Shown piece after piece: positions 16,765-64,000 of a stretch of DNA of 64,000 bases. The position numbers and the translations under genes were made by a program. Location: the NCBI GenBank assembly GCA_032622095.1, contig CP136062.1, forward strand, positions 152,576,875 through 152,640,874, read 5' to 3'. This stretch comes from Siphonodentalium dalli. Its lineage: Eukaryota; Mollusca; Scaphopoda; Gadilida; Siphonodentaliidae. The notes beneath the pieces were generated by a model. It saw nothing but the letters and a program-made list of their open reading frames with translations. It made no database searches and had not been told where the DNA came from. Positions within the stretch are counted from its first letter, which is position 1; every line of letters starts with the position of its first letter.

Positions 16765-16768
16765 TTAA

Positions 16769-17160
16769 CCCTTTACCCAACAGAAGGGCCCTGTGCCAAT
16801 GCATTCTCTTATATATGCGAGTCGACCATAGGTCGCCTCGCATATATAAGAGAATGCATTGGCTTAACACATTACAAATTATAAAATTGTTAAAGAATGT
16901 AAGAAAAAATGGTAAAAAGTGTTAAAAAAAGGTTTTTTTTAGGCCAATGCATTCTCTTATATATGCGAGGCGACCTATGGTCGACTCGCATATATAAGAG
17001 AATGCATTGGCACAGGGCATAACTGTAACTATCACAATGTGGTCAAGGAGCCGGTTCCAATGATATCCATATTTGTATGGTTCTATTGAGACAGTCCGAA
17101 GATATTTTAGGCTGTTGAAGCTTTATTTGGCCGGTTTTGGCCGGTTTGTTGGGTAAAGGG
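16769..17160. mobile_element. piggyBac-type MITE made of nested palindromes
   Basis: The element is 392 bp. TTAA at 16765-16768 is followed by CCCTTTACCCAACA, and the right end TGTTGGGTAAAGGG is followed by TTAA (17161-17164). Perfect 14-bp inverted ends starting CCC with a TTAA duplication are the piggyBac signature. Inside are two 69-bp palindromes (16795-16863 and 16943-17011). Each has 27-bp arms starting GCCAATGCATTCTCTTATAT around a GTCGACC/GGTCGC centre. The two palindromes are themselves reverse complements, separated by 79 bp of A-rich sequence, so the whole core can fold as two hairpins or one long one. A second copy lies at 46.3 kb in the opposite orientation, and a degenerate relative at 0.4-1.0 kb. 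There is no coding capacity. Confidence 0.9.
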
Positions 17161-26530: not shown

Positions 26531-26737
26531 AGACATATACACATATTATATACACATATTATATACACATATTATATACACATATTATATACACATATTA
26601 TATACACATATTATATACACATATTATATACACATATTATATACACATATTATATACACATATTATATACACATATTATATACACATATTATATACACAT
26701 ATTATATACACATATTATATACACATATTATATACAT
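26531..26737. repeat. 13-bp minisatellite, about 16 copies
   Basis: The unit ACACATATTATAT is repeated almost perfectly head to tail. The 80-codon frame through it is an artefact of the repeat (13 bp gives a 13-residue cycle). Confidence 0.97.
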
Positions 26738-35400: not shown

Positions 35401-37924
35401 CCGATCTTCACCCATAAACCATATTTAAAGCTATTTCCACCGCTAATAAACCACATCGCATCCGCCATTGACCGGTGTTGAGTCTGAATTAATACAGACA
35501 TGTAGACTATGTATTCTATTTGTGGGGGGGGGGGGTACACCCTCGGTCGATTCTATTTTATTATTAAACAAGCATCCTATAACCAAATATAAGACCATCA
35601 AGACCGTGACATGTCATTGACGTGCTTGATTCCCTTTAGCTGAGAATGAGAATTTCCCATCAGAATATCTAGTTTGATTCGCCTGGTCTGACATCCTCAG
35701 CTCGACGACATGATTCGTACACGACATGTCACTTTAGCTCGAGTGGTCAGGTTACTACTTTTTCAGATTTTTGCAGTTTTGGACTAGGATTCGGTCTATT
35801 CAACAAGGGACATTCTATGCTCGCAGATAAACAGACATGCGAGTCACAGAAACAATTACAGACGACAAATATATAAGAGACGAGACTGTCACGAGAGTTT
35901 GTTATTGAAATTTGCTTTTACTTCCATGAAGTAGAAACTAAACAATGTAACTGTTGTTGCCAAAATTTCGCACATTAGACTGGTTCTTGTCCCAATTACA
36001 GCATCTTCCCGATTTGCAGTAACATGACCCTTTTGTGTCACGCTCGAGTACCGCCGTTGCAATATGTACCATAGATCTGTGTATACATGATTCACGTACA
36101 TGTATGTGCGACACATTCAGAACCACTCTGTTATCTGGAGAGTGTATAGTGTGCATTATTCTTAAATAGTTGCAAAGAATTGCAGTAACTGTTGTCTGAT
36201 TCTCGAAAGATCGAAAGACACATGTCGCGTCATTACATGCCACATTCACTTTTGTTTAATTAACCGAGTGACACACTTTGTACCAATTCTACATGTAATC
36301 CATGTTGATTTCCAATTATAACTTGTACACTCGGCAATATTAAAGGTCGTATCTCCTTCGGCGTTATTATTCGGAAGTGATCTCGCTCTACGTTCCGTAA
36401 AAGTCGTATCTCTAAACACGTTTACGTCGTTTTCTAGCGATGGAGCGCATAGACTGTGAAATGTCGCATCTAGGTGTATTTCTGTGTCATGGATAATATT
36501 CGCATAGTTACAGCGAGGTCAGAACAATGCAAATATGAAAACTGAGCAACCGAAACTTCACACCCGAATTGATCGGAAAATAGAATATTGACTTAGGACC
36601 TTGTAGCATTGTTGCGAAGATATGGCCAATTGTTTTCATTCTTAGCTGCCCGACGAATGGTTAGAACAGATTCCGTAGTACCGGCTGTCTGGTTGACAAA
36701 GTTAAATTCGATTTATCAGGGGTTTCGCGATTGTTGTCACCACAGCATCGCATTACCTACTTTCAACCAAAATATGTGTACTTTTTAATTCGTGTCTCAC
36801 ATTGGGTAACATTTTACAATTTATAATGCTGAAATTGATGCAGATAATTATATAGACGGGGAATATTACATATTCAGGGGTATATCAGTCGCCATGACAA
36901 CAGTTATATTCGCCAAAAACAATACGAAATGAGAGGTGTGTTTATGACCAGTCAGTTCTATATAATACAGTGCATGCACATCTCTATTTAATTCAATGAG
37001 ACGAAATATTTTTGACTGGACTCACTATTTATCGACTTTCTGATGTGAAAATAATACATTTTGGCAGCCATTTTGAAAACGGTTTCCATGGTGACGAGAG
37101 AACCTGTTGACGAAATCTACCCAAATTATTTTGGAAGCCCTTGACCCAAGGTACATAACTTATATAGAGTTTGCTCTAGAGCAAGAAACCCCTGCGGGGC
37201 CATATGCTGGGTCCAGTATTATTATGTATAACCTGAATTTACTACAGCCACGTCTTAAAATATCCACGTCCGATTTACAATACCTTTCTATCTCTTTATG
37301 AAAATAAAAAATGTCCCCACCCTAGCTTCATACCATTTTAGAAATGCTCTCTCTATTTTCCTCCGACATTAAGGTGACGTTTACACATAGCCGGTGAATC
37401 CGTTACCCGAAGATACGCATATATTCATGTGTCTCCTTTACTTGTTAATAGTTTTAGTTTTAGTTTTCACTGAACTGCAATATGATATTGCTGTACACTT
37501 GTAAACAGCTAGCCGCTTCCTGTTAGAGGTATTGTTGGGCAGTATAGTGAAATGAAACTTTTTAGAAATGGAAATGCCGAAATTATTAATATCCAACTCA
37601 AACTTTCAGGTATTGCTATTGGTAATTTTAAAGATATTTAAACAACATTGTTAATGGTTTGTTTGAGTTCATAGACAGCATGTGAAGTGAGTGTCGCACC
37701 AAAAGCATTGTCATTGTCAGTTTTGAGATCTTTTCGTCGCATACATCTACAAATTGGTGTCTAATCATTCGGATTGGATTTTCTCTCCAATATATTTTGA
37801 TACAATCTGTATTCGAGAGATAACCCACATCATCCGGACCTCAATGATATGATCGTGAATGAGTATTGATATACCCCACTAAATTTTGACAAACACCAGT
37901 AATGGTGTGTAGATAATTTACATA
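35401..37924. other. Long stretch with nothing firmly recognised
   Basis: A G-run lies at 35524-35533. The minus-strand frames at 35889-36249 overlap and have no recognised domain. GTTTCCATGGTGAC at 37082-37095 is close to the RFX X-box palindrome but has one mismatch in a key position, with no gene next to it. At 37787 a Helitron-5'-like phrase (TCTCTCCAATATATTTTGAT) stands alone. Confidence 0.35.
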
Positions 37925-38493
37925 TCTCTCCTATATATTTTGATACAATCTATCTAATTTACATATCTCTCTTATATATTTGGATACAATCTATCTGTTT
38001 GTCTGTTTGTCATTTATACAAATCTACGATTCTCCACCGATCGAGACCAAACTTCGTATCTAGGGGTAAAATTCCACGGACACGGTCGTTGCCGTATTGG
38101 CGACCCCGTGCGACTCCCGTGCAGCGCATGCGCAGACGAGATATCGGAAACGGATGGAGCTATCGACTTGAAATTTGCTATGTGAATGTATCTTGCCCCG
38201 GATACGAATTTTATCGGGTCGCCGAGCCCGTGCGACGCCAGGTTCGCGCATGCGCAGACGAGATCTCGGAAACGGGTGGAGCTATCGACTTGAAATTTGG
38301 TATGTGAATGTATCTTGCCCCGGATACGAATTGTATCGGGTCGCCGAGCCCGTGCGACGCCAGCTTCGCGCATGCGCAGAACAGATCTCGGAAACGGGTG
38401 GAGCTATCGACTTGAAATTTGGTTTTTGAATAGCTATCGACTTGAAATTTGTTTTTTTTTAATAGCCCGGACAACTTCGGGCTCATCGGCTAG
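37925..38493 (+). mobile_element. Single Helitron-like element, 122-bp monomer family
   Basis: The plus-strand 5' end A/TCTCTCTTATATATTTGG (from 37966) is preceded by a 41-bp partial duplicate of itself (37925-37965). A GTCTGTTTGTC stretch follows, then three 122-bp monomers (with GCGCATGCGC at about 38125, 38247 and 38369). The 3' end is the hairpin AGCCCGGACAACTTCGGGCT, CATCGG, and CTAG at 38490-38493, followed by T. TC start, terminal hairpin, CTAG end and A/T target fit Helitrons. It is the same family as H2-H6 in the 49-52-kb array but inserted alone. No coding sequence. Confidence 0.75.
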
Positions 38494-43499: not shown

Positions 43500-44106
43500 T
43501 GGGGAAATGTTATTAGACACACGTAGGCGACGTTAACCTCGGACATCTTAAAATGGCACTAATAGTTATTTTGTTTATATATGTTTTCCCTGGGAGCGGA
43601 AACCTTGTACATATAAGTAATTTGACCCGGGGAATCTTATTAGACAGGTCCCGTTAACATCAACTGTCTTCAAATAGCACTAATCATTGTTTTATTTTTG
43701 GCTATAGGCGACCAAACGGCTGGACTATCGGAACTGAAAATGTTTACACAAGGTCACCGATAAATGGAATATCATGGGACAGGCGCCATTTTCCTCCGAT
43801 GACTTAAACGGCACATTGAGGTAATTTGGCTCGGGGATTGTCATGTGATATGTGCCATTGGCATCAGATGACTTAAAAGGGGAACTAATAATTAGTAATA
43901 AAGAGCGTTTAATGTCAACTTCAAAGTTATCGGGAGAGTTCATGCAATAGGTGATGTTTACTACAGGTAACTAATAATTAATTTATATGACTTGAAGGGG
44001 CACTACTAATTTACTCATCTTACGCGAGCAACACCGGGTACCCCAGCTAGTTTTATATACGCCGGGTACCCCGGCCAGATTGATATACGCAGGGTACCCC
44101 AGCTAG
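43500..44106 (+). mobile_element. Helitron-like sequence with three stacked 3' ends
   Basis: A diverged unit of about 130 bp (TTATTAGACA, CGTTAACnTC, CACTAATnnTT) repeats between 43,509 and 43,980. The region ends with three short tandem 3' termini: CGGGTACCCCAGCTAG/T (CTAG 44047-44050), CGGGTACCCCGGCCAG/A, and AGGGTACCCCAGCTAG/T (CTAG 44103-44106), spaced by about 28 bp. CTAG followed by T after a GC-rich hairpin-like stretch matches the other Helitron ends in the window. The 5' end was not found. Confidence 0.5.
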
Positions 44107-44109
44107 TTT

Positions 44110-44901
44110 TATATAAAGCTGATTTACAGATATGTTTTGTGAATAAAATTACTGATAAAACTGAAGATTTTGTATATTATTTGTCTATACATCGAGCGCA
44201 AATCTCGATGAAACCTGTTAGTTGAAATGAAATTTCCTTTATTGAGGGCGTTCACAATACATGATTCTGACGCTCCAAACGTTTTTTGCGAGATTTCCCG
44301 AAGTGTGTGTTCGAAATATAGCAAAATTGTCCGACAGGTTGTATGTATTACACCAGACAAATCGAATTAGAATAAATATTATTGATGGATGCGTTTCCCG
44401 GTAGGTGTCTTAGATTCATATATATTATTGTGTAGCTAGGAAACTACATACAACTTGTTATGAAGAGAGAAAATATGCAACGGTTTTCATTATTTGGCTA
44501 AAAATGTATTTAATTGGTCTCGGCAGCCCGGCAGACTTGGTATGAGGGGCATAGACCAATATAAAAACCGTTGCATGTCACATTTAATACTAAATACTCA
44601 TTGACGAGTAGCTCCACAGACGTCCGTCCTATATATGGTCTTATAACCCGAACAATTCCCATCAATAAACCAAACACAATTCCCATCAATAAATAGGAAT
44701 CATTCTACAATTCCCATATTCTGTCGTATGCTCATAATTCCTGAGCATCCCTCCCGACGAATAATACTCTTCCAATGTATAACTGAATCAGAGACTCCAT
44801 TTAGTCTCCATAAGTTTCAAAAAATTGTGGCCCAATCCCTTTTGTATATTATGCAAATAAGATATGTTTTAAGTCAACCGACCTTGAGTTCTGGATCCTA
44901 C
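44110..44901. other. Non-coding, nothing recognised
   Basis: No supportable gene or repeat. It borders the lectin exon on its downstream (intron) side. Confidence 0.35.
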
Positions 44902-46160: not shown

Positions 46161-46285
46161 CACTAGTTGAGCATATCGGCATGTCGTCTGCTGTCGTTGG
46201 GCGTGCCTCGTCGTCGATACATCGGGGATGCGTTGCTCGGAACTACAAGTATTTAGTTTACCTTGTATTCACGGCCATCTCGCCG

Positions 46286-46637
46286 CTTCAACAGCCTAAA
46301 ATATCTTCGATCTGTCTCAATAGAACCATACACATATGGATATCATTGGAATCGGCTCCTTGACCACATTGTGATAGTTACAGTTATGCCCTGTGCCAAT
46401 GCATTCTCTTATATATGCGAGTCGACCATAGGTCGCCTCGCATATATAAGAGAATGCATTGGCCTAAAAAAAATCTTTTTTTAACACTTTTTACCATTTT
46501 TTCTTACATTCTTTAACAATTTTATAATTTTTAATGTGTTAAGCCAATGCATTCTCTTATATATGCGAGGCGACCTATGGTCGACTCGCATATATAAGAG
46601 AATGCATTGGCACAGGGCCGTTCTGTTGGGTAAAGGG
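46286..46637. mobile_element. piggyBac-type nested-palindrome MITE, second copy, one end lost
   Basis: This is the reverse complement of the element at 16.8 kb: CTTCAACAGCCTAAAATATC, then CACAATGTGGTCA-complement sequence, the two 69-bp palindromes, and the end TGTTGGGTAAAGGG (46624-46637) followed by TTAA (46638-46641). The other terminus (about 39 bp including its CCC end) is missing, with unrelated sequence before 46286. The palindromes are practically identical to those of the first copy, but the centre spacer differs by a few bases. Confidence 0.88.
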
Positions 46638-46641
46638 TTAA

Positions 46642-48421
46642 TTAATGGCAGAACTATGAAATTAGTCCAGCGTCTATTCTTCTTGGTATATCTGCTGTCG
46701 TAATTGCCGAAACGTGCGTCGACTTCGAGAGTCTCAGTGGACATCTGATTCTTGGACTTCGTACTGACTTGAAAACTGTTTATTTATACACGTCTTCACT
46801 CTGGCGTGCTTCGGGGTTTTCTTTATGGTTGCTCGGCGGCCTGGCACGAATGCCGTCAGACGGTACAATCTTCGTGATTCTATCTGTAGATATGTACCAG
46901 GTGGTCACATGTGGTCAGCTTGTGGTAGGCTTGTCCATGCTATGTCGCCGAGTCCAAGATCCTATCTATAGATTGTTCGGTTCTGTCCACTTCGATGAGT
47001 ATAGCTAATGGAAGGTTCTCTACTTTTTGTCAGGGGCATTGTATGTTCTTGTCTCCCCTATATTTGAGATGGTGTCGTCTTGTTCGTGCTGCATATTGTC
47101 ACTATATTATTGTTCACCTGGCACTATTTCCTGTTATGCCACGAACATTGCATAACACAATTTATAGAATGGGTTTATTGAATGGAATAAGGGCAGGATC
47201 ATGTAATACAATTCAAACGTTACCTGTATCAGGGCCGGGAACATAATTATCTCAAAAATGGCGGAAGATATCACGCATGGTAATTTCGGCATTCATTTTT
47301 CTATATTGTAACCTATTACACCAATGAGTTCCCCCAACAAATTATCGGATACTGTAAACACGGGATAACGAACATATTTTAAGCAGATATTGTCGTTCAG
47401 ATGTCAGAAGTTCAAAAAATGTGACAGAATCACTTAACACTTATATCTTCTCAACAGTCATATCTATAATGCAAATAGATTCGTAGTGAGCTGGTAAAAA
47501 TATATACGTATCAATTTTGAGTTATTTATTGAGAAATGTGGCAGCAATTTCGATACAACGATGACATTGATTCACGGTCTATGTATACAGCTCAAAACAT
47601 TGGGTGTAACGCAATTGAATTGCGCTTATGTGCAATTATTTACGCTGAAGCACAGTTAGTTGTACTATAATTCAATTGAGATTAAGAACAATTCAATTAC
47701 GCTTAAAGACACGGTTGGCCTTGGCGGTGGGTATCCTGTGAAAATATCCCCACCCGTCAAAAACCGCCACAAACAGAAAGATCATCAAAATGTAGATAGA
47801 CTTTGTCCGTATACAAATAAGAAATATCGCATAAACAGTATGTTATGGTCATATGTTTGACCATTGTTATGTAAACAAAAGCATAAAAAGTTACTTTTCT
47901 GGTGTTTGTTTATATTATGATGGTAAACATAAAGAGCGTTCTTTGTTGGTGAATACCTGATATGGAACTAATAAAGAGCGTTTATGCCAGTTGTGTGTGA
48001 TTAGCCAGTAGCATTGTGCTGTCTTCTGTAACACAATCAGGCTCTTGCTTAGGTAAAATATAGTAGGTCTTTGTGATAACATGCTGTTTATGCGATGGTC
48101 ATGGTATATATGAACGGAACTGTATGCGTTTTAATGTTTTTCTGTTTACGGTGTTAGGAACCAAGATGAATATTTTCGACAATTAAGGCCGCACGTGCCT
48201 TTAAGCGCAATTCATTTAACATTATGTGGACAGCAATTCCGCTTAATCGCAACTAAACACTCTGTAATTTCAGCTATTGATCACCATAAACAAAACCCTG
48301 GCAAAACCTGATTATGAACCTCATTTGATCTTCGAGGGGGTGACAAAAACTTGTTATGGCTATTGTGCAATTAGATGGATATGTACGTAATTGCGTTTAA
48401 GCCCAATCTATATATATTATA
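46642..48421. other. Non-coding with a recurring AATTGCGCTTAA motif
   Basis: The phrase CAATTGAATTGCGCTTA and its complement recur (about 47610, 47670, 48210, 48240, 48390), some in inverted pairs. GGCGGTGGGTAT and ATATCCCCACCCGTC (47723-47760) form another hairpin. AAAGAGCGTTTAT occurs near 47930 and 47980. These look like remains of palindromic repeats. No gene recognised. Confidence 0.4.
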
Positions 48422-49153
48422 CTAGAAGGTGACCCGACTTCGTCCGGGCTTTGACCTTGAATTGTCTATTTTGAAGGCCAAGGTCAAGTGGGGTCACGAT
48501 TTGACCCGTCCAAAACACTGCCCGAACAAAAGTACCCGACAAAAGTACCAGTCTAAATCCATCCGGTTTCATCCGATTTGACCTTGAATTGATCATTTTG
48601 AAGGTCAGGTCTGGGTCACGATTTGACCCATCCAAAACACCCAGTGGACAAAAGTAACCCTATGTATAAAATTTCGTCGAAATACCATCAAAATTGGCGA
48701 TTTGACCTTGAATTGACCCTATTTCAAGGTCAAGGTCACGTCGCACAGGCAAATGAATATGCTTATGAGACTCCCCATACGAAAGTACCCCCACATACCA
48801 AGTTTCATCGAAATCCCGTGATATTCGGGCGTTTGACCTTGAAATGACCCGATTTCAAGGCCAAGGTCACGTCGCACGGGCAAATTAATATGCTTATGAG
48901 ACTCCCCATACGAAAGTACCCCCACATACCAAGTTTCATTGAAATCCCGTGATATTCGGGCGTTTGACCTTGAAATTACCCGATTTCAAGGTCAAGGTCA
49001 CGTCGCACTGGTAAATTAATAGGCCCATGTCACTCCCCAGCCGAAAATACCCACACATACCAAGTTTCATCGAAATCGGCTTGGCCGTTTTTGAGTCCAT
49101 CGATTACAGACAGACACACACACACACCCAGATCTTCCAAAATATATAATAGA
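48422..49153 (-). mobile_element. Helitron-like element H1 (131-bp monomers)
   Basis: On the minus strand the 5' end TCTATTATATATTTTGGAAG (from 49153) directly abuts the CTAG of H2. The 3' end is the hairpin CCCGGACGAAGTCGGG, CACCTT and CTAG (48425-48422) followed by T. The interior has 131-bp monomers (phases at 48701, 48832 and 48963) with TTGACCTTGAA and TCAAGGTCAAGGTCAC. It is 732 bp without coding sequence. Confidence 0.8.
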
Positions 49154-49675
49154 CTAGCCGATGAGCCCGACGTTGTCCGGGCTATTCATAAACAAAATTT
49201 CAAGTCGATAGCTCTACCCGTTTCCGAGATCTGGTCTGCGCATGCGCGAAGCTGGCGTCGCACGGGCTCGGCGACCCGATAAAATTCGTATCCGGGGCAA
49301 GATACATTCACATAGCAAATTTCAAGTCGATAGCTCCACCCGTTTCCGAGATCTCGTCTGCGCATGCGCGAAGCTGGTGTCGAACGGGCTCGGCGACCCG
49401 ATACAATTCGTATCCGGGGCAAGATACATTCACATAGCAAATTTCAAGTCGATAGCTCCACCCGTTTCCGAGATCTCGTCTGCGCATGCGCGAAGCGGGC
49501 GCCGCACGGGCTCGACAATACGACAACGTTCACCGCCCGGTCAAACTACACACACGTACCAAGTTTCGTCCCGATCGGTCGAGAATCGTAGATTTGTATA
49601 AATGACAGACAGACAAACAAACAAACAAACAAACATACATACAGACAGAGGTCTTCAAAATATATATGAGATAGA
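49154..49675 (-). mobile_element. Helitron-like element H2 (122-bp monomers)
   Basis: 522 bp. The 5' end TCTATCTCATATATATTTTG (from 49675) abuts the CTAG of H3, and the 3' end CATCGG-CTAG is at 49157-49154. There are three monomer phases, each with TGCGCATGCGC. The hairpin near the 3' end is AGCCCGGACAACGTCGGGCT. The (CAAA)n stretch and GACAGAC motif lie near the 5' end. Confidence 0.85.
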
Positions 49676-50228
49676 CTAGCCGATGAGCCCGACGTTGTCC
49701 GGGCTATTCAAAAACCAAATTTCAAGTCGATAGCTCTACCCAGCCCGAAATTTCAAGTCGATAGCTCTACCCGTTTCCGAGATCTGGTCTGCGCATGCGC
49801 GAAGCTGGCGTCGCACGGGCTCGGCGACCCGATAAAATTCGTATCCGGGGCAAGATACATTCACATAGCAAATTTCAAGTCGATAGCTCCACCCGTTTCC
49901 GAGATCTCGTCTGCGCATGCGCGAAGCTGGTGTCGCACGGGCTCGGCGACCCGATAAAATTCGTATCCGGGGCAAGATACATTCACATAGCAAATTTCAA
50001 GTCGATAGCTCCACCCGTTTCCGAGATCTCGTCTGCGCATGCGCGAAGCGGGCGCCGCACGGGCTCGCCAATACGACAACGTTCACCGCCTGGTCAAACT
50101 ACACACACGTACCAAGTTTCGTCCCGATCGGTCGAGAATCGTAGATTTGTATAAATGACAGACAGACAAACAAACAAACAAACAAACAAACATACATACA
50201 GACAGAGGTCTTCAAAATATATATGAGA
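49676..50228 (-). mobile_element. Helitron-like element H3 (122-bp monomers)
   Basis: 553 bp. It has the same ends as H2 (CTAG 49679-49676; TC at 50228) and three monomers. It contains an extra partial monomer start (49727-49745) next to the 3' hairpin, which accounts for the greater length. Confidence 0.85.
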
Positions 50229-50746
50229 CTAGCCGATGAGCCCGACGTTGTCCGGGCTATTCATAAACAAAATTTCAAGTCGATAGCTCTACCCGTTTCC
50301 GAGATCTGGTCTGCGCATGCGCGAAGCTGGCGTCGCACGGGCTCGGCGACCCGATAAAATTCGTATCCGGGGCAAGATACATTCACATAGCAAATTTCAA
50401 TTCGATAGCTCCACCCGTTTCCGAGATCTCGTCTGCGCATGTGCGAAGATGGTGTCGCACGGGCTCGGCGACCCGATACAATTCGTATCCGGGACAAGAT
50501 ACATTCACATAGCAAATATCAAGTCGATAGCTCCACCCGTTTCCGAGATCTCGTCTGCGCATGCGCGAAGCGGGCGCCGCACGGGCTCGACAACACGACA
50601 ACGTTCACCGCCCGGTCAAACTACACACACGTACCAAGTTTCGTCCCGATCGGTCGAGAATCGTAGATTTGTATAAATGACAGACAGACAAACAAACAAA
50701 CAAACAAACATACATACAGACAGAGGTCTTCAAAATATATATGAGA
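50229..50746 (-). mobile_element. Helitron-like element H4 (122-bp monomers)
   Basis: 518 bp. CTAG at 50232-50229, TC at 50746. It has three monomers. The middle one carries GCGCATGTGCG in place of the palindrome. Confidence 0.85.
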
Positions 50747-51320
50747 CTAGCCGATGAGCCCGACGTTGTCCGGGCTATTCAAAAACCAAATTTCAAGTCG
50801 ATAGCTCTACCCAGCCCGACGTTGTCCGGGCTATTCAAAAACCAAATTTCAAGTCGATAGCTCCACCCGTTTCCGAGATCTCGTCTGCGCATGCGCGAAG
50901 CTGGCGTCGCACGGGCTCGGCGACCCGATAAAATTCGTATCCGGGGCAAGATACATTCACATACCAAATTTCAAGTCGATAGCTCCACCCGTTTCCGAGA
51001 TCTCGTCTGCGCATGCGCGAAGCTGACGTCGCACGGGCTCGGCGACCCGATAAAATTCGTATCCGGGGCAAGATACATTCACATAACAAATTTCAAGTCG
51101 ATAGCTCCACCCGTTTCCGAGATCTCGTCTGCGCATGCGCGAAGCGGGCGCCGCACGGGGTCGCCAATACGACAACGTTCACCGCCTGGTCAAACTACAC
51201 ACACGTACCAAGTTTCGTCCCGATCGGTCAAGAATCGTAGATTTGTATTAATGACAGACAGACAAACAAACAAACAAACAAACATACATACAGACAGAGG
51301 TCTTCAAAATATATATGAGA
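50747..51320 (-). mobile_element. Helitron-like element H5 (122-bp monomers)
   Basis: 574 bp. CTAG at 50750-50747. It has three monomers and a duplicated 3' terminal section: the hairpin phrase CCCGACGTTGTCCGGGCTAT occurs twice, 50759 and 50815, on the plus strand. Confidence 0.85.
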
Positions 51321-51957
51321 TAGCCGATGAGCCCGACGTTGTCCGGGCTATTCAAAAACCAAATTTCAAGTCGATAGCTCCACCCGTTTCCGAGATCTCG
51401 TCTGCGCATGCGCGAAGCTGGCGTCGCACGGGCTCGGCGACCCGATAAAATTCGTATCCGGGGCAAGATACATTCACATACCAAATTTCAAGTCGATAGC
51501 TCCACCCGTTTCCGAGATCTCGTCTGCGCATGCGCGAAGCTGGCGTCGCACGGGCTCGGCGACCCGATAAAATTCGTATCCGGGGCAAGATACATTCACA
51601 TAGCAAATTTCAAGTCGATAGCTCCACCCGTCTCCGAGATCTGGTCTGCGCATGCGCGAAGCTGGCGTCGCACGGGCTCGGCGACCCGATAAAATTCGTA
51701 TCCGGGGCAAGATACATTCACATAGCAAATTTCAAGTCGATAGCTCCACCCGTTTCTGAGATCTCGTCTGCGCATGCGCGAAGCGGGCGCCGCACGGGCT
51801 CGCCAATACGACAACGTTCACCGCGGTCAAACTACACACACGTACCAAGTTTCGTCCCGATCGGTCGAGAATCGTAGATTTGTATAAATGACAGACAGAC
51901 AAACAGACAAACAAACAAACATACATACAGACAGAGGTCTTCAAAATATATATGAGA
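51321..51957 (-). mobile_element. Helitron-like element H6 (122-bp monomers)
   Basis: 637 bp with four monomers, the longest of its family here. Its 3' end at the junction with H5 has lost one base (CTA in place of CTAG). Its 5' TC at 51957 abuts the CTAG of H7. Confidence 0.85.
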
Positions 51958-52936
51958 CTAGCAGATTAGCCCGCCACTGGCGGGATTGGTCCCATGGCTT
52001 TGGTCGATCCATTAATTTTTGTTTTTCAAGGTAACCCCGTACAGGCACGCCGAAAAAAATATTCCCCGTCCAGAGTTGACAAATAATTATTTTGTTTTTA
52101 TAAATTTTAAATTGCGGAAAAATTTACCCGATGAAATCCCCCCCTTCCTAGGAACGACAGACAACGCATTCTTTGTTTTTCTTTTTTTTTAACCTGCCCG
52201 TACCCGTCCTAATGTCAAGGTCAAGTCGGGTGACAATTTAACCCGTCCATGACACTTCCCGTAGACACCAAGTTTGAGCTCAATCGGTCCGAGTCTATAA
52301 AGGACACACACATATATATCATTTGTGGGTACCCGTTTCAAGGTGAAGATCACCTCGGGCGGAAAAACTTACCCGATAAAAATCTCCCCCGTTACTTGGA
52401 ACTCCTAAGTACGAAATTATGTACGAAATTTCGCCTCGAGACGCTCAATGGAGCCGTATTTATACTCATCGTGTATATAGACGCTCAGTACGATAACATT
52501 GTATTGAACTGAAAACAAACGCTTCCCGTCCTGAAATCATCTCTCTGCATAATATTTCGAGGGATAAAATTGCATTGAATTGAAAACAAACGCCGGCTTC
52601 CCGTCGTGAAAATCTCTCTGCATAATATTTCTAGCGACAGGCTACAATCTCTCTGCAGATGCTAATAACGTTGAATGGTAAACAAAACGCTCTTTATAGC
52701 GATGTGTCAAAAACAAACGCTCATTAAATTATGACTTGATTAACGCCCGCCGTGCCTTTGCGGTGATTTGGGAGTGGATAAAGGGTGCTCTGAGCTTCTC
52801 CAAAACGCGACCAAGGCGGTGTCGGTGATATTCTACACTTACATACGAAATTTTAGCTCAATCTGTACACGCGTTTTGGATTCTATGAAGTACACACACA
52901 CATATATACGAAGTCTCAAAATATATAGTATAGACA
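51958..52936 (-). mobile_element. Helitron-like element H7 (third interior type)
   Basis: About 979 bp. The 3' end is the hairpin CCCGCCAGTGGCGGG, CTAATCTG, and CTAG (51961-51958), directly followed by the TCTC start of H6. The 5' end reads TCTATACTATATATTTTGAG (TC near 52932; the alternative A/TCTG at 52936). The interior is neither the 122- nor the 131-bp monomer. It has diverged phrases (AACTTACCCGATAAAA/AATTTACCCGATGAAA, CTCTCTGCATAATATTT twice, and AACGCTCTTTAT). Confidence 0.75.
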
Positions 52937-55510: not shown

Positions 55511-56435
55511 AGCGGCATCTACTTTTTTCAGGGACAGTGCGGGAGGTGTGAATAATCCGCGACATCAAAGAGTTGCCGCAGTATTACTTGCGGTAGGATT
55601 TGTTCGGGTATATTTGGCCCCGATTGAGTTCGTCAATGAATAAAGAATTGTCAGATAAAATCTTTTATAATAAAAAACAATTGCATATATTGAATTATAT
55701 ATATATATATGCATATTTGTTAATCCCTGTCAAAGGCCTTTATGTCCGTGTCATGTTTTGTTGTCGCATTTTATTTTAGTTGGCATTACTATTTTCTTGT
55801 GTTTGTTCATATTACATGAACGAAAATGGTTTCGGTAGTTTGTGCGGCGATATCGTGTTCTAACAAATGGCTGAAAAATTGGATATAACATTACAAAAAT
55901 TCATAAGCTAAAGACATATTATGCACTCTGAGTGCACTCCGTGGTCATCCGTGTTGAAGTCGTGGTCATCCATGTTAATAGCGTGGTCAGCAGTGTTTAC
56001 CCCGTGGTCTGCATCCCAATGCAGAGAGGCACCTACTCTTTTCCGGGACAGTGCGGGAGATGTGAATAGTCCGCGACATCAAAGAGTTGCCGAAGTATTA
56101 CTTGCGGTAGACTTTTTTAGGGTATATTTGGCCCGGATTGATTTCGTCAATGAATAAAGAATTGTCAGATAAAATCTTTTATAACAAAAAACAATTTCAT
56201 ATATTGAATTATATATATATATGCATATTTGTTTATCTGTGTCTATATGTCTTTATATCCGTGTCATGTTTTGTTGTCGCATTTTATTTTAGTTGGCATT
56301 ACTATTTTCTTGTGTTTGTTCATATTACATGTACGCAAATGGTTTCGGTAGTTTGTGCGGCGATATCGTGTTCTAACAAATGGCTGAAAAATTGGATATA
56401 ACATTAAAAAAATTCATAAGTTAAAGACATATTAT
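55413..56435. repeat. Tandem duplication, unit about 510 bp
   Basis: The segment from CTGAGTGCACGCCGTGGTCA (55413) through GTCAATGAATAAAGAATTGT to ACATATTATGCACT (55926) is repeated from 55927 to about 56435. The copies are around 90 percent identical by eye. The end part (ATGTCTTTATATCCGTGTCA onward) appears a third time at 63.42 kb. Confidence 0.9.
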
Positions 56436-56826
56436 GCACTTGTTCGGGCGCGTGAAACTGGGGGAATGTAGAATTCTACTAACATTGCCGAAAATCTCAA
56501 ACAAATCGACCGTACCACTTCATAGAAAACATCGTCTGAACTACGCTCAATTGTAAATATTTACTTCCCGATTCGGGACGCAACTATCGGCGGTAAATTA
56601 ACACAAATGATTTCGCCATCGGGGGGGGGGGGGTCACTGTATTTAATGAATATATAAGAATTGCGGTGTGTTTTGTCAATTTGGATATAATATTTGTAAA
56701 AATAACTACTTTCAGCACGATTATTCTCCATTTCTATTTGATCACCCTACCGGAGTGTTTCACATCATTTTAACATTTCGAATTTAATGTTCAAAACGTA
56801 ACTAAAGTTTTAAATTTTAATTTTCA
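56244..56826. repeat. Long direct repeat, left copy
   Basis: From TATATGTCTTTATATCCGTG this segment is repeated at 63418-64000 with no difference that I can see other than the length of the G-run (13 against 14). The match runs to the end of the window, so the true repeat is longer. It encodes nothing recognised. Confidence 0.95.
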
Positions 56827-57029
56827 TAAATTGTTTTGAAAACTCGGATCCAAATTTATAAATAAAATTTAGTTTTTCCAAATTTAATTTTAAATGCTCA
56901 TTTTCAACAATTAATAAAATGTTCAAGAATTGTCAATATCAAAGTAATTTCATATATATGCACATATACATATTTGAGGACTCACAGCGAAAGGAGTACA
57001 GTTACAACGGCGGGGGTCCCAGTAAAAAG
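56827..57029. other. AT-rich spacer
   Basis: AT-rich sequence ending in a GC-richer phrase (CAGCGAAAGGAGTACAGTTA) before the LINE RT fragment. The 5' boundary of the LINE insertion should lie in or near this stretch. Confidence 0.4.
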
Positions 57030-57930
57030 AAGGAATTGCCAATTTTAAACCAGACCGACCATATATAGACAGTATTTCAATAACGTCTGTTGATGTTTAC
57101 AAGGCTCTAAAATTTCTGAAGGTCTCAAAATCATGTGGTCCAGATAAAATAAGTCCTAGATTACTCAAGCATTGTGCATCTTCTTTATGTGAACCACTTG
57201 CATCTTATTTCAAATTATTTATTGAAAACAATTATTACCCGCACCAATGGAAGATATCTAATGTGACCCCGATTTTTAAGGCAGGAGATCCCGGTATTAC
57301 TTGTAACTATCGTCCAGTCTCCCTACTTAGCTGTGTATCAAAGGTGTTTGAGAAGTGTATATATACATGTAAATATCTCTGGGAATTTCTGGAAGTCAAT
57401 AAACTACTATCAATTTATCAATCTGGATTTGTGAAAGGTGACTCAACTGTTTTTCAACTGACAGAAATATACGACAACATATGCAGGTCCCTAGATGATG
57501 GAAAGGAAATAAGATGTGTTTTCTGTGACGTTAGTAAAGCATTTGACAAGGTATGGCATCGCGGACTACTTTATAAACTAACGAAGATAGGAATTACGGG
57601 GGATTTACATAAACTGATTGAATCATATCTTGAACACCGACAACAACGTGTTATTATCGATGGATCAAGTTCTCAGTTGCAGAATGTTTCTGCGGGAGTT
57701 CCTCAAGGATCTATCTTAGGTCCTCTTTTTTTCTTGATATACATAAATGACATAACTGAATTCATAACATGCAAAATTCGTCTTTTCGCTGATAACACTT
57801 CGATTTTCCTAACCATTGAAGACCCCAATCTTGCCGCAAAAGTTATCAATGATGACTTAGAAACTTTAATGAAATGGTCGACTAAATGGCTTGTCAAATT
57901 TAATCCACTGAAGACAGAAACTCTCCATCA
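57030..57930 (+). pseudogene. LINE reverse-transcriptase fragment (LINE-B)
   Basis: The plus-strand frame is open upstream of the first ATG and reads KALKFLKVSKSCGPDKISPR, then ENNYYPHQWKISNVTPIFKA, NYRPVSLLSCVSKVFEKCIY, and QSGFVKGDSTVFQLTEIYDN. Then come VFCDVSKAFDKVWHRGLLYK (motif A), SAGVPQGSILGPLFFLIYIN and FADNTSIFL. In the last, the second Asp of the FADD catalytic pair is Asn, which should abolish activity. After KFNPLKTET the RT text ends at about 57,925 and sequence belonging to the next LINE's ORF1 begins. The endonuclease and C-terminus are absent. It is a jockey/CR1-superfamily RT by motif style. Confidence 0.88.
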
Positions 57931-57981
57931 AACTTTTCAGCATCGCAGACTGACACTCCAGTCAGCATTAACTCCTCACAA

Positions 57982-59190
57982 ATGCCATCTTTGGCTTCAT
58001 CTCTACTTGAAATTCAGAAGGATATATTACTGATGAAGGAAGATCAAATCTCCACGACTCAGGCTGCACTGCGCGAGCTTCCACTTCTTAGAGGAATGAT
58101 TACTAACTTTGAATCACGTTTAGTTTCCATAGAAAATAAGTTATCAACAGTCTCGTCGATCCCTGCTCTCGTGACGCGCGTGGATACTCTTGAAACCAAA
58201 GTCAATAACATTTTTGAAATATATGATGAACATTATAGATTCGCAAATGGAATTTCATCTGATTTGACCGATTTTAAAATGTGCAATAAACGTGATAACA
58301 AACATGTATCCAAGGATGTAACAGAGCTTGAGCTAAGGTGTAATGAGTTAGACAGGAAAATAGCCTGCCAATCTGGATCGATTGCTTCACTCAGTGACAC
58401 AATGAAGAAAAAACTTACACCTACGGATAGAGCTACACAGGAAGCAACAAAGGAATTTCTCAAATTCACGGAAAAGGCCGTCGATGTTTTAAGTACAAAA
58501 ACATTTAATAAAATGAGTGAATTCGCTGACTCGCTACAAAAGTCTTTGTTGTATATAAACCAATGTCAATCTGACATATCCCGTGGCATCTTGCAATTTT
58601 GTGACTCCTCTGCAAACAACACTTTTGATGGGAAATCACCTACTTCTCGGCAATCCCCGAAATCATCGCCTATCTCGGTAAAGGAAACAGCCTCTCAGAC
58701 AGCTTATCGTAAGGAATCGTACTTGGAAGACATCACTGTTGAAGATTCCCCTGGTGAATCAAGGGGTGCTGCCACAAAATATCGCCACACCAATACAAGT
58801 AAACCTGAGGAAAACTTTGATCGACGACGACGTGCATCTGACAGCAGTGATCGTTCTCATTATTCTCATAATCAACGCTATCGGAAATTTATGCATCAAA
58901 AACATGATAATCCCATGAAGACAGCTCGTCTCTTTGTTACTAACCTGCCATTAAATTGTGATGCTAATGTTGTGAATTCCTATTTGGAAAAGTATGACAT
59001 TCCGTACACCATCATCAGAATTTTCAGGACACGACGTTCTAGTTACACATCGGCAAGAATCAATGTGTGTGTAGATAACGTAGGTGACGTTCTGGAACCT
59101 CACTTTTGGCCCAACGACGTTCAATGTAAAGAGTGGGTCGAACACAAAGTTTATAAATCTACAACACAAAAGGGACAGTACTCTAGTTAA
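57982..59190 (+). CDS. LINE-C ORF1 protein (coiled coil, RRM-like C-terminal domain)
   Basis: From the ATG at 57982 the ORF encodes 402 residues, but the frame is open back to about 57904 (…NFSASQTDTPVSINSSQ before the Met). The true N-terminus may therefore be upstream, or lost at the LINE-B junction. Residues 10-80 have heptad-like hydrophobic spacing (FESRLVSIENKLSTVSS, LVTRVDTLETKVNNIFEIYD), suggesting a coiled coil for self-association. The middle (about 210-310) is Ser/Lys/Arg rich and polar. Near residues 312-390, TARLFVTNLPLNCDANVVNS leads into a beta-alpha-beta pattern ending VQCKEWVEHKVY, which resembles the RRM-like RNA-binding fold of LINE ORF1 proteins. Its expected role is binding the LINE RNA to form a particle with ORF2. 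The fold is inferred from pattern only. Confidence 0.75.
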   Translation: MPSLASSLLEIQKDILLMKEDQISTTQAALRELPLLRGMITNFESRLVSIENKLSTVSSIPALVTRVDTLETKVNNIFEIYDEHYRFANGISSDLTDFKMCNKRDNKHVSKDVTELELRCNELDRKIACQSGSIASLSDTMKKKLTPTDRATQEATKEFLKFTEKAVDVLSTKTFNKMSEFADSLQKSLLYINQCQSDISRGILQFCDSSANNTFDGKSPTSRQSPKSSPISVKETASQTAYRKESYLEDITVEDSPGESRGAATKYRHTNTSKPEENFDRRRRASDSSDRSHYSHNQRYRKFMHQKHDNPMKTARLFVTNLPLNCDANVVNSYLEKYDIPYTIIRIFRTRRSSYTSARINVCVDNVGDVLEPHFWPNDVQCKEWVEHKVYKSTTQKGQYSS

Positions 59191-59247
59191 CTCATTTACA
59201 GAATGGGGTTATCTCTCTTTTAACAGTTTCGCATTCCTCAGCGAGAC

Positions 59248-62200
59248 ATGAAGGCAAATAAGTGCAGAATTGTTACTTGGTTAATGTATTTGATATGTAT
59301 TTTGTCGCTATTATTCTGTGTCTCACATTTTCAGTATTTATCAAAGAAGGATGAGCTTCCTGCGGTGGCTCAAATGTATGATTTTCCACTGGTGCAAAGT
59401 ATCTTGATCCACAAAATGCTTTCCTTTGGCACATGGAACGCGACTGGTATTCTTTCGTCTGCGTGTTATCTCAGTAATTTTCTTGACAAACTGAACCTGG
59501 ATATCTGTGGCATCAGCGAACATTGGTTATGTGATGCAGATTTACCTTACTTTCGCCACATTAACTCAAAATATGACTTTTTTGCTGTTAGCGATTTTTC
59601 TCAACGCCTCCCTTGGAAACGCGGGCGTTACTCTGGTGGCGTATGCCTCATGTGGAATCGCGATAGGCTCGGGAGCAGAGTAACCCCTCTTGATATAAAT
59701 GATGATCGCATTATCGGCATACAAGTAAACATGGGAAGGAGATATATTTTCACATTCCAAGTTTATCTTCCGTCTACGAACTATACTGTTGCATTTTTCC
59801 GGGAGTACATCCAGAAGTTGATTGACCTCCGCGATACATATAGTGTTCTCGGCAAAGTAGTTTTTATGGGCGACTTCAATGCAAGCCTTCAGCGTGATGA
59901 TGCGCGTGCCAAATCATTTAAGAAGTTTTTAGACAATAAGTTTATCTCTGTCAATGTCGTGTCTTTTCCCCTGAATATACCTGCAACACACGTTCCTGCC
60001 ATGGGTTATCCTGGTTCAGTGATCGATCACATTGTCGTCAACAAAGACGACACTGATCTTATTTTTCATTGCGAAATTCTGGATGATGATGCAATCAATG
60101 TGTCCAACCATAGGCCCATTTACGTCATGATGAAGTACGATGACTATACATATACACCTCGAAGTAGTACAATTCCAAGCCATAGTACATGTAAGTTCAG
60201 TTGGAAGAAGTTTAAGCTAGACACTGTAATGCAATTGTCGTATCAGTCAGATTTAGCTACATCGTTACCACGCGATGACGTAAATAACAAATCTGAGTTG
60301 GATACATTTTATGAAAACATAGTTAACTCTATCACAGTTTCTGCTCAGAATAATATCCCAAAGAAACGTTTTAAGAAGTTTCTTAAACCTTACTGGTCGA
60401 AAGAATTAAGCTTACTTCACAAGAGTATGCGATATCACAGATCTGTTTGGATTTCGGTTGGTAGGCCAATTAATGATGCAACTGGTTTATATCGCTGTTA
60501 TAAAGATGCCAAATGCTCTTTCAGGCGCGAATACCGGAGGGCATCAACTAATTTTCTTCGCTCTTTTAACGATGACATAGATAAAAGCGCTGAGTGTGAT
60601 CAAGATACTTTCTTCAGACTCTTCAACGCGAAACGCAAATCATTAGGGACACTTGGTAGCACACACTTCTCCTTTCAAAATTCGATAGTACGAGAAACCC
60701 CAGATATTCTTGAAGCTTGGGCTGAGTACTATTATAACATTTTTTCCACACCGCTAACGGATCCCAAGTTTGACGAATCACATTTTAACCTAGTCAACCA
60801 ATTTGTAGAGACCGAATCGATGAAAAATTCAACATGCCCATTAGACGGATTGTTAACTTTTCCAACTAATATGAAGGAAATCACATCTCTTTGTCGCACT
60901 TTAAACCTCAACAAAGCAGCTGGTACAGATGGTGTAAATTATGAGCATATTATTTTTGGTGGTGAGGCTCTTGCCCGCTGCATTGCTACCTTGTACAACT
61001 ATTTCTTCCAATTTGAACATATACCACTTGGTGCTAAGCGTGGTTGTATAATATCTCTATATAAGGGACATCCTAAACCAAAAGATTCCTTTGATAGCTA
61101 CAGAGCAATTACTCTGCTACCAGCAATATATAAACTTTTTGAGAAACTTTTATTATCGAGAATGGAGAAGTATACTGCCTTTGCAATTGAAGTTGATTCC
61201 TTGCAGAATGGGTTCCAGCGGGGCATAAGTTGCAACATGTCTTCTTTTCTTGTAACAGAAAGTATAGCGTATACATCCGAGAGACAGAGCAAACTGTTTG
61301 CCTGTTTCTTGGATGTATGGAAAGCTTTCGATAGTGTTTGGATAAACGGTTTATTGTATAAACTGCATAAGAGGCAATTACAGGGAAAAATTTGGAGGCT
61401 ATTTTACCACTTGTTGAACAATATCAGCTGCTGCATTAAATACCAAGGTGGTTGCTCTAGGTGGATCCCAATGCTGCAAGGAACAAGGCAGGGAGGTACA
61501 TTATCTCCCCTCTTTTATATAATATATATCAATGATCTTTTGTCAAATCTAAAGTCATCGGGATATGGCCTTTTGATGCAAGGTGCAAATTGCACATGTC
61601 CAACGCATGCCGATGACATGGCACTTTTCTCTTTAACTGCATATGGACTTCAGTCTCTTGTCGATATATGTGTCGAATATAGCTTGAAATGGCGTTATAG
61701 ATACAACACAAACAAAACCCATGTCATTGTTTTCAATGAAAGTGCTAACGCAGCACTTAAACGTCATAAGAACTGGCACATGTCTTCTCATGTCCTAACA
61801 GAAACCGACAGTGTTACTCATTTAGGTATTCCGCTTGAGAAATATAATTTTCGCTCAAAACTTGTTGACAATATTTGTACAAAAACGAAGAATGCTTTCT
61901 TCTCTTTGGCTAATGCTGGCCTGCATGCAGGCGGTATTACCCCAGCGAGCTCTCTCAAGATTTACAAGTCCGTGGTCTTACCGCGAGGCTTATACGGTAG
62001 TGAATTTTTGTGTGGTCTCTCTCAATCGGACACTGTTCAACTAGAGAAAGCACATCGTATGTGCCTCAAACTTATACAAGGCCTCAAAACTAGGACTAGC
62101 ACAGACATGGTCTTGGGTCTGCTTGGTATTCCTCCTTTAATCACATTCATTAATTGTAGAAAAGTGTCCTTGTTTTCGTCATTTTGTTTACTCGAGTCTA

Positions 62201-62889
62201 AAAAAACTGTTAAAGATGTATTTATTATCAGATTACTGAGCTTTTCATATGAATCCAACACTGCATCGAAGAATGTGTTTTTTCAGGACCTATCCAGTAT
62301 TCTTGATAACTGGAGTTTGTCCTCCTATATGTCTCAATACATATCAACAGCTCTGTTTCCAGAGAAAACAGTTTGGAAAACCCTATCGAAACAGGGCAGT
62401 CATGTTTGGAAATCTGAATGGTCTCACAGGGTGCGCACGGAACCCACCTTTGATAGATTTCGTTTGGTTCACAGCAGTCCAGAATTATCGTTTTTATGGA
62501 AAGTCTGCCAAAAGTACCCAGATGAGAAGGAGTCATTTTTCATCGCGACACAGCTACTGTGTTACCGAAATTATGCTGGCGAAACTCAGTGCCTGTTATG
62601 TGCGCGAAGTTATATAGACCTACCGCAACACATTATAGCGGTTTGCCCAGAACTTGCAGCGTCGCGTAATCATTTTTGGTATCACTTTATAGATATGTTG
62701 CCTTTAGGGGCATTTCAACTTGTGGAGTCTTTTGATCAGCAGAGACTTATTGCCCTCTTTCTAGGCTATTTGCCTATTGAACTTTTGGACATTGCATGCA
62801 TTCCACCTCAAACCATATTGAGATACTTCTTGAAGGCGACTAGGGCGCTGTGGTGCGAATGGAACCATCGTTCGTCATTGGCGTCATAA
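59248..62889 (+). CDS. LINE-C ORF2 protein: APE endonuclease and reverse transcriptase
   Basis: One uninterrupted 1213-residue frame. Residues 1-37 are a hydrophobic leader (TWLMYLICILSLLFCVSHF). The endonuclease follows (about 56-300), with FGTWNATG, ISEHWL, VFMGDFNASL near residue 206, and VSNHRPIYVMM (Asn where many relatives have Asp). The RT has LNLNKAAGTDGVNYEHI, ITLLPAIYKLFEKLLLSRM, LQNGFQRGISC, FLDVWKAFDSVW (motif A), LQGTRQGGTLSPLFYIIYIN and THADDMALFS near residue 785 (catalytic Asp pair present; His replaces the usual aromatic). The C-terminal CLLCARSYIDLPQHIIAVC (about 1115-1133) is a zinc-knuckle-like C-x2-C-x9-H-x4-C. The enzyme would nick DNA and copy the LINE RNA at the nick. 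All key residues except those noted are kept, so it may be active. It could also be expressed from the second Met (residue 57), without the leader. Confidence 0.93.
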   Translation: MKANKCRIVTWLMYLICILSLLFCVSHFQYLSKKDELPAVAQMYDFPLVQSILIHKMLSFGTWNATGILSSACYLSNFLDKLNLDICGISEHWLCDADLPYFRHINSKYDFFAVSDFSQRLPWKRGRYSGGVCLMWNRDRLGSRVTPLDINDDRIIGIQVNMGRRYIFTFQVYLPSTNYTVAFFREYIQKLIDLRDTYSVLGKVVFMGDFNASLQRDDARAKSFKKFLDNKFISVNVVSFPLNIPATHVPAMGYPGSVIDHIVVNKDDTDLIFHCEILDDDAINVSNHRPIYVMMKYDDYTYTPRSSTIPSHSTCKFSWKKFKLDTVMQLSYQSDLATSLPRDDVNNKSELDTFYENIVNSITVSAQNNIPKKRFKKFLKPYWSKELSLLHKSMRYHRSVWISVGRPINDATGLYRCYKDAKCSFRREYRRASTNFLRSFNDDIDKSAECDQDTFFRLFNAKRKSLGTLGSTHFSFQNSIVRETPDILEAWAEYYYNIFSTPLTDPKFDESHFNLVNQFVETESMKNSTCPLDGLLTFPTNMKEITSLCRTLNLNKAAGTDGVNYEHIIFGGEALARCIATLYNYFFQFEHIPLGAKRGCIISLYKGHPKPKDSFDSYRAITLLPAIYKLFEKLLLSRMEKYTAFAIEVDSLQNGFQRGISCNMSSFLVTESIAYTSERQSKLFACFLDVWKAFDSVWINGLLYKLHKRQLQGKIWRLFYHLLNNISCCIKYQGGCSRWIPMLQGTRQGGTLSPLFYIIYINDLLSNLKSSGYGLLMQGANCTCPTHADDMALFSLTAYGLQSLVDICVEYSLKWRYRYNTNKTHVIVFNESANAALKRHKNWHMSSHVLTETDSVTHLGIPLEKYNFRSKLVDNICTKTKNAFFSLANAGLHAGGITPASSLKIYKSVVLPRGLYGSEFLCGLSQSDTVQLEKAHRMCLKLIQGLKTRTSTDMVLGLLGIPPLITFINCRKVSLFSSFCLLESKKTVKDVFIIRLLSFSYESNTASKNVFFQDLSSILDNWSLSSYMSQYISTALFPEKTVWKTLSKQGSHVWKSEWSHRVRTEPTFDRFRLVHSSPELSFLWKVCQKYPDEKESFFIATQLLCYRNYAGETQCLLCARSYIDLPQHIIAVCPELAASRNHFWYHFIDMLPLGAFQLVESFDQQRLIALFLGYLPIELLDIACIPPQTILRYFLKATRALWCEWNHRSSLAS

Positions 62890-63201
62890 TTGTTTGTCAC
62901 TTATATGCATGTAGTCAGTGGGAGAAGAAAGTCACCATTGTTGGCAAATATAAATAATTGGTAGCCCTCTTATATACAATGGTGTTGTGTTGGGTCTACT
63001 ATTTGTTTGTAATGTCCAACAACGGTGTCTGACAACTGTGATGTGAGCGAACATCTGGTCGTGTGGTCGGCTGGGTGCTACAGTTCTCCATGAATTTAGG
63101 ATTATCTAGCTTCAATTAACCCCTCTCTGCTTCTCCCCACTTTTCTCTAACTTAACTCATTTCATTCTATTTTCCCATACTGTCTCTATCTGTATCCGGC
63201 G

Positions 63202-63235
<34 letters not shown>

Positions 63236-63417
63236 GTCTTGTTCGTGTGCCCGGCCGATCTGTTTCCATCTATATTCGTTTTGCTTTGCACATACATAAA
63301 GTGTGTACATGTATATATGTTATGTTCTCGTTCCTATGTTCTATTGTTTTTGTATGTTCTTGTATTACATGTGTATATCATATCTTCATTTATATGGAGG
63401 AATTAAAGATATATATA
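62890..63417 (+). other. LINE-C 3' UTR
   Basis: Non-coding tail of the LINE, ending GGAATTAAAGATATATATAT where the direct repeat starts. It includes a (TC)n microsatellite at 63202-63239. There is no clear AATAAA. The short AT repeat at the end may be the element's reverse-transcription tail. Confidence 0.75.
63202..63239. repeat. (TC)n microsatellite
   Basis: CT dinucleotides with one A interruption, inside the 3' UTR of LINE-C. Confidence 0.95.
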
Positions 63418-64000
63418 TATATGTCTTTATATCCGTGTCATGTTTTGTTGTCGCATTTTATTTTAGTTGGCATTACTATTTTCTTGTGTTTGTTCATATT
63501 ACATGTACGCAAATGGTTTCGGTAGTTTGTGCGGCGATATCGTGTTCTAACAAATGGCTGAAAAATTGGATATAACATTAAAAAAATTCATAAGTTAAAG
63601 ACATATTATGCACTTGTTCGGGCGCGTGAAACTGGGGGAATGTAGAATTCTACTAACATTGCCGAAAATCTCAAACAAATCGACCGTACCACTTCATAGA
63701 AAACATCGTCTGAACTACGCTCAATTGTAAATATTTACTTCCCGATTCGGGACGCAACTATCGGCGGTAAATTAACACAAATGATTTCGCCATCGGGGGG
63801 GGGGGGGGGTCACTGTATTTAATGAATATATAAGAATTGCGGTGTGTTTTGTCAATTTGGATATAATATTTGTAAAAATAACTACTTTCAGCACGATTAT
63901 TCTCCATTTCTATTTGATCACCCTACCGGAGTGTTTCACATCATTTTAACATTTCGAATTTAATGTTCAAAACGTAACTAAAGTTTTAAATTTTAATTTT
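63418..64000. repeat. Long direct repeat, right copy (continues beyond window)
   Basis: Matches 56244-56826 base for base as far as I can follow, apart from the G-run length. It begins exactly where the LINE-C 3' tail ends. The offset between copies is about 7.17 kb. Confidence 0.95.

Follow-up and report, generated by a model that had tools for sequence, protein, structure and literature searches.

Tandem Helitrons have been reported in bats, maize and fungi, and it was left open whether they arise as concatemers or through serial insertion (PMC2267711, PMC5148889). In the bat Myotis lucifugus, Pritham and Feschotte (2007) described perfect head-to-tail Helitron junctions, which were taken as rolling-circle tandem repeats (PMC2267711). 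Xiong et al. (2016) likewise regarded plant tandem Helitrons, which are mostly centromeric, as rolling-circle products (PMC6591975, PMC5148889). For two adjacent head-to-tail Helitrons in the maize r1 region, reported in 2008, the authors favoured consecutive insertion (PMC2267711), and for a three-copy case in Metarhizium both explanations were given (PMC5148889). In the Helraiser model, the transposase cuts the 5′ end of the transposon and later joins the ends via two tyrosines (PMC4778049). Here we analyzed a stretch of 64,000 nucleotides (the window) from the scaphopod mollusc Siphonodentalium dalli (GenBank assembly GCA_032622095.1, contig CP136062.1, positions 152,576,875 to 152,640,874 of the forward strand), which contains seven Helitron-like units joined head to tail. 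We consider it probable that such arrays of short Helitrons were stacked one by one, each newcomer inserting exactly at the A/TC where a resident copy has its 5′ end and facing the same way as that copy, with growth in the 5′ direction (a slash in a sequence marks the junction).

The array lies on the minus strand between 48422 and approximately 52934 (Table 1), and its units belong to three families in the order A (U1), five B (U2 to U6) and C (U7). Every unit starts with TC and terminates in CTAG, except one that ends in CTA. On the minus strand, CTAG is followed without a gap by TCT at five of the six joints (51958/51957, 50747/50746, 50229/50228, 49676/49675 and 49154/49153), and the joint between U2 and U3 (51321/51320) reads CTA/TCTC, one G short. 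A GC-rich stem precedes CTAG by 6 nt in family B, 7 nt in U7 and 8 nt in U1. Direct reading of the sequence thus confirmed the initial annotation in its seven minus-strand units, its mixture of three families, its joints and its stem 6–8 nt before CTAG. When three 3′ ends were folded, the stem was the predicted fold in U1 and U4 and part of a larger weak fold in U7; none of the z-scores (−0.87 for U1, −1.67 for U4 and −1.05 for U7) was significant. The window's minus strand contains seven copies of the motif CTAGTCT, and the array joints account for five. By itself it is not rare, because mononucleotide shuffles gave a mean of 3.9 copies; its position between full units and its recurrence throughout the genome are beyond chance.

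U2 to U6 are 96.3–98.8% identical to each other in ungapped pairwise alignment. The family B units of the window carry 122-bp internal repeats and a TTTG/TCTG microsatellite close to the 5′ end. According to PMC2374699, DINE-1 likewise has internal tandem repeats and a microsatellite close to its 5′ end. In U6, TCTA precedes the usual TCTCATAT start, and these additional bases may be captured host sequence or a lengthened 5′ end. The window also holds a solo relative of family B on the plus strand (Table 1). Its 5′ end is duplicated at 37914-37996 (+), where a 41-bp unit runs from host flank (TAATTTACATA) into the start of the element. A further plus-strand segment, 44034-44115, consists of 2.9 copies of a 28-bp unit resembling repeated Helitron 3′ ends, in which a GC palindrome is followed by CTAG/T.

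The search of the window's own assembly (2,226,750,531 bases, 2.23 Gb, 9 contigs) with U6 gave 2,805 candidates, 40 of which were scored. Twenty-four of 36 candidate loci were sampled and, with the window, make up 25 sources. These sources contain 87 head-to-tail joints, present in 23 of the 25, in a classification that may count one E-type start (L013) as C. The 76 B starts comprised 45 after CTAG, 29 after A (two in the window's own array) and 2 others. Hence 29 of the 31 B starts that do not follow CTAG follow A, as expected of the A/T insertion of canonical Helitrons and not of the T/T insertion of Helentrons and HINEs, such as those of oysters and DINE-1. Assignment of the units to canonical Helitrons (Helitron1) is supported by their TC and CTAG ends, by the A/T site, by the presence of solo copies and by a Rep-domain element that has the ends of the U7 family, and the Helitron identity proposed in the initial annotation therefore held; that annotation would have given it up had solo copies with the same ends been absent, and they are present. 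TC/CTAG ends, a 3′ hairpin, the A/T site and precise end joining are common to these units and Helraiser (PMC4778049, PMC5876387). In contrast, the Fusarium and Metarhizium elements, as accessible in PMC5148889, are single cases with Helitron2-type ends and target sites.

Genome-wide counts were made with exact patterns on both strands, which miss diverged joints; the reversed-pattern control gave 0 every time. The junction search that had been suggested for this array returned 6,674 exact 27-base matches to the B-to-B joint, compared with 0 for the reversed pattern. Among 16,913 exact B starts, 7,788 were preceded by A, and the 2,451 that were neither preceded by A nor part of an exact B-to-B joint comprised 317 after a family C end and 2,134 unclassified starts. 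B-to-B joints thus make up 39% of exact B starts, set against approximately 2.3e8 AT sites (extrapolated from the window), and the joined share is far above chance. The array is real, and arrays of this kind are widespread, with thousands of joints in the genome. In C1:1-17.97 Mb, 64 of 100 B starts followed A and 26 were B-to-B joints, and an A-preceded B start lay directly upstream of 11 of the 15 joint clusters. In viral and prokaryote contig collections, the hairpin patterns gave 0 matches outside the own genome.

Satellite-style expansion through unequal crossing-over, or an assembly artefact, could also produce repeated joints, and three sampled cases (L010, L017/L023 and L027) have the appearance of segmental duplications and two genomic blocks that of satellites. 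However, the first 100 listed B-to-B joints, all in the first 50 Mb of C1, form 51 scattered clusters, of which 27 consist of a single joint; units within an array differ in length and family, and neighbours are unlike. We therefore regard this origin as highly improbable. The same scatter distinguishes these arrays from the centromeric tandem Helitrons of plants (PMC6591975, PMC5148889). One of the two blocks, C2:103.71-103.80 Mb, where C-to-B joints cluster (17 among the first 100 places listed), resembles an array turned satellite.

If a circle or a read-through product of one template inserted as a multimer, as the initial annotation had considered, the neighbours within an array should be close copies of that template. 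In favour of such concatemers, Helraiser circles carry the exact CTAG/TC junction (PMC4778049), and tandem arrays have been cited as backing rolling-circle transposition (PMC5876387). To compare neighbours, 4 of the 76 B starts lacking a clear end were dropped, leaving 72 B units with both ends, at least one of which (L016) was cut at an internal hairpin copy. The mean distance of the adjacent B–B pairs (n = 35, leaving out U2–U3, one of the window's four) was 0.0363, compared with 0.0357 between loci, the latter biased downward because the sampled loci were picked by likeness to U6. On average, 48% of the copies at other loci were nearer to a B unit than its own neighbour. When downstream partners were permuted, which lessens this selection bias without removing it, the null distance was 0.0381 (sd 0.0015; p = 0.11). 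Apart from L019, the first L010 pair and U5–U6, neighbours were thus not near-copies of a single template. Since units resemble their neighbours no more than they resemble copies at other loci, the sampled arrays are mainly independent arrivals.

The neighbour-distance test therefore largely refuted rolling-circle concatemers, and we rejected them for the sampled family B arrays. Further, families are mixed inside one array, family order is asymmetric and adjacent units differ in length, although a few close neighbours exist; altogether, we consider this origin very unlikely. The closest other copy of U6, among the 40 scored of the 2,805 candidates, lies on C1 and was reported as 100% identical over query 3–522, and is nearer than the array neighbours U4 (98.6%) and U5 (98.8%). 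A duplication of a U3U4 dimer into U5U6, suggested by shared scars, is unneeded, as the nearest copy of U6 is on another chromosome, although U5 and U6 are fairly close.

The initial annotation had named repeated insertion at the A/T end site as the alternative. In its plainest form, newcomers merely happen to use a host A and a resident T. The starts that do not follow CTAG do follow A, and for the maize pair such insertion was one of two suggested orders (PMC2267711). However, AT is the same on both strands, so that approximately half of the joints should be head to head. Genome-wide, exact matches to head-to-head joints numbered 0 for B with B and 0 for B with C, and narrow patterns for head-to-head and tail-to-tail joints gave 0 in the 25 sources with their 87 head-to-tail joints. 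On the zero exact head-to-head counts we rejected orientation-random A/T insertion, and the joined share also exceeds chance by orders of magnitude; there is hardly any likelihood left for plain A/T insertion. Insertion at this site stood, whereas the A/T dinucleotide was insufficient as its explanation. Because AT is symmetrical and yet no exact head-to-head joint was found, the orientation seems to need recognition of the resident.

The order of families was also asymmetric. Exact B-to-C joints numbered 1,861 genome-wide and C-to-B joints 317 (5.9 to 1). In the 25 sources, B was followed by another family 22 times and preceded by one 4 times (20 versus 4 without the apparent segmental duplicates). 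Divergence between loci is greater in family C (0.102, 23 units) than in family B (0.0425, 44 units, U6 search hits excluded), and this was also the case in the first 150 nt (0.096 for C and 0.050 for B). The more diverged family C thus sits mostly 3′ of B. With divergence taken as age, this position suggests that arrays likely grow at the 5′ end.

Two further explanations bear on this order. Newcomers could instead insert on the 3′ side, at the G/T after a resident's CTAG; such insertion, the alternative discussed for the maize pair (PMC2267711), would yield identical joints and orientation. However, G/T is not the usual site, as the bases before free B starts indicate, and the more diverged family is mostly on the 3′ side, although the polarity within family B (21 versus 14 of 35 pairs) does not decide; we regard 3′-side growth as unlikely. 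Alternatively, the transposase could link different elements 3′ to 5′ before insertion, the mixed chain then inserting once at A/T. This would explain the orientation, the mixed families and the unlike neighbours equally well, and the chemistry would presumably be identical. It predicts no direction of family order, however, and the observed order is directional. Further, the same pair of neighbours rarely occurs at two places: 4 of 595 comparisons of neighbour pairs matched, three in apparent segmental duplications and one between L016 and U4–U5. Preformed mixed chains are accordingly improbable, to about the same degree as 3′-side growth.

Candidate autonomous partners were sought with Pfam PF14214 (Helitron_like_N), which gave 151 matches when 150 of 457 candidates were scored, several of them in open frames of at least 1,600 codons. 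One such copy, at C1:114.63-114.64 Mb, has its Rep match at C1:114,638,548 in an open frame of 1,697 codons. The element is 9.15 kb long (114,633,093 to 114,642,242; both ends and the first part were read) and has a family C-like start, TCTATTATATATTTTG. It opens at 114,633,093 with TCTATTATATATTTTGAAAGATCTG, immediately behind another element's CTAG, and its 3′ end is the family C terminus followed by T, with 1 mismatch to U7 over the last 43 nt. As judged from these ends, the element very likely moves family C and itself stands in arrays. Directly upstream of it, at approximately 470-793 of L058 (C1:114632300-114635000), lies a chimera of a B-like body and a family C 3′ end.

A Rep-domain relative at C6:36.91 Mb has its last 43 nt identical to those of U7 (L046). 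It carries the Rep domain and a PIF1 helicase match that starts at the stretch edge (L039; 22.8 bits versus the curated 25.9), and an inverted family C-like piece lies upstream of its frame. A C-type start stands directly behind this copy and behind the copy at C1:243.1 Mb. The Rep copy at C4:39.6 Mb has lost its last bases, and a family C end was not found at the predicted distance in four further Rep-copy stretches, which possibly belong to other families. Behind a copy of a second Rep family, at approximately 905 of L048 (C3:17615900-17617600), another type of 3′ hairpin with its CTAG directly precedes TCTATATATATAAAACC, which may be a further head-to-tail joint. Of the autonomous Rep-helicase partners with the same ends for which the initial annotation had suggested a search, one of the expected class was thus identified for family C, with the helicase seen only as the cut-off PIF1 match of the relative; among the Rep copies examined, none was found for families A and B.

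For stacking at the resident's 5′ end, the Rep-helicase would open a resident with the initial cut that it normally makes between A and TC. The circle of another element would enter at this nick rather than at an arbitrary A/T site; the host A would join the newcomer's TC, and the newcomer's CTAG would join the resident's TC. The array would lengthen at its 5′ end by one newcomer per insertion. We hold a stronger version only tentatively, and with somewhat less than even confidence: Helitrons may home on each other's 5′ ends, the Rep-helicase nick between host A and resident TC being a preferred landing site, so that residents in this genome would serve as orientation-specific docks and an array would record its insertions in layers, the newest copy standing at the front.

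Several observations weigh against serial stacking at the 5′ end. The A before U1 is not clear-cut, as the start is ambiguous between TCTATAC at 52934 after G and TCTGTCTATAC at 52938 after A. In C1:1-17.97 Mb, only 26 of 100 B starts were in B-to-B joints, and for 4 of the 15 joint clusters an A-preceded B start was lacking directly upstream. Satellite-like blocks at C1:31.74-31.76 Mb and C2:103.71-103.80 Mb contribute to the joint totals, and local duplication in the apparently segmentally duplicated L010, L017/L023 and L027 adds to the count. Distances are small for a few neighbours (L019, 0.006; the first L010 pair, 0.014; U5–U6, 0.012), and, besides the bias from selection by U6, 12 of the 36 candidate loci lie outside the sample. 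Because long inverted repeats are unstable and assemble poorly, some head-to-head joints are possibly hidden, and exact patterns miss diverged ones. Such loss could mask B/B cases; B and C bodies differ more, yet head-to-head B/C joints also numbered 0. Finally, the greater divergence of family C is only a proxy for age, and within family B the 5′ neighbour was the less diverged unit 21 times among 35 pairs, versus 14 times for the 3′ neighbour, which was not significant (p = 0.31).

Table 1. Helitron-like units of the array and a solo relative in the S. dalli window
Feature	Positions	Strand	Details
U1, family A	51958..52934	-	start TCTATACTATATATTTTGAG; GC stem, 8 nt, then CTAG
U2, family B	51321..51957	-	extra 122-bp internal repeat; ends in CTA, lacking the G
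U3, family B	50747..51320	-	duplicated 3′ hairpin region (56-bp repeat)
U4, family B	50229..50746	-	518 nt
U5, family B	49676..50228	-	has part of U3's hairpin-duplication scar
TCTA between U5's CTAG and U6's usual start	49672..49675	-	TCTA/TCTC also in L018, L026 and L044
U6, family B	49154..49671	-	518 nt
U7, family C	48422..49153	-	131-bp internal repeats; 3′ flank begins with T
Solo family B relative	37925..38493	+	A/TCTCTCC...CTAG/T; 92.1-93.7% to B units

Other repeats and open frames were observed in the window. Two 16-bp satellite arrays (25141-25388 and 26115-26360) are mutually inverted and approximately 0.7 kb apart, with a perfect 13-bp satellite beside them at 26535-26736, and a 358-nt repeat occurs in inverted copies that are 98% alike (16764-17121 and 46285-46642). 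An open frame on the minus strand (3507-4262) matches DDE_Tnp_4, a DNA transposase domain. Direct repeats spaced 7.17 kb apart and 99–100% identical bound the region 56235-64000, running to the window end, and between them lies a LINE frame of 1,221 aa with endonuclease and reverse transcriptase domains (59224-62889), whose protein matches reach at most 39% identity.

Compared with known tandem Helitrons, the S. dalli arrays are new in their scale, neighbour test, strict orientation and family order. The maize r1 pair likewise has a CTAG end followed directly by the TC of an unlike Helitron, and an A/T formed by the host A and the resident T was one option for it. In the accessible text, however, it is a single pair whose order was left unresolved, and that text gives no count across the genome and no test of orientation or of the distance between neighbours (PMC2267711). 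The junctions in M. lucifugus (PMC2267711) are perfect and head to tail as they are here, whereas in S. dalli arrays combine families and most neighbours are not close copies. The Helraiser circle is an experimental circle of one element, and stacking onto residents is not described in the accessible text (PMC4778049, PMC5876387). We found no genome-wide test of orientation or neighbour likeness for tandem Helitrons in the literature, in a search for which subscription papers were mostly outside the scope.

Head-to-tail arrays have been cited as support for rolling-circle transposition. Because neighbours here are mostly not copies of each other, such arrays alone cannot carry that argument, and head-to-tail Helitron arrays are probably not the often-assumed proof of rolling-circle copying. 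With thousands of joints in one genome, the choice between concatemers and serial insertion becomes directly testable. If docking on residents is true, it would amount to a target-site rule beyond A/T, would make the order of insertion readable from sequence and would show how mobile elements build satellite-like arrays from unlike parts.

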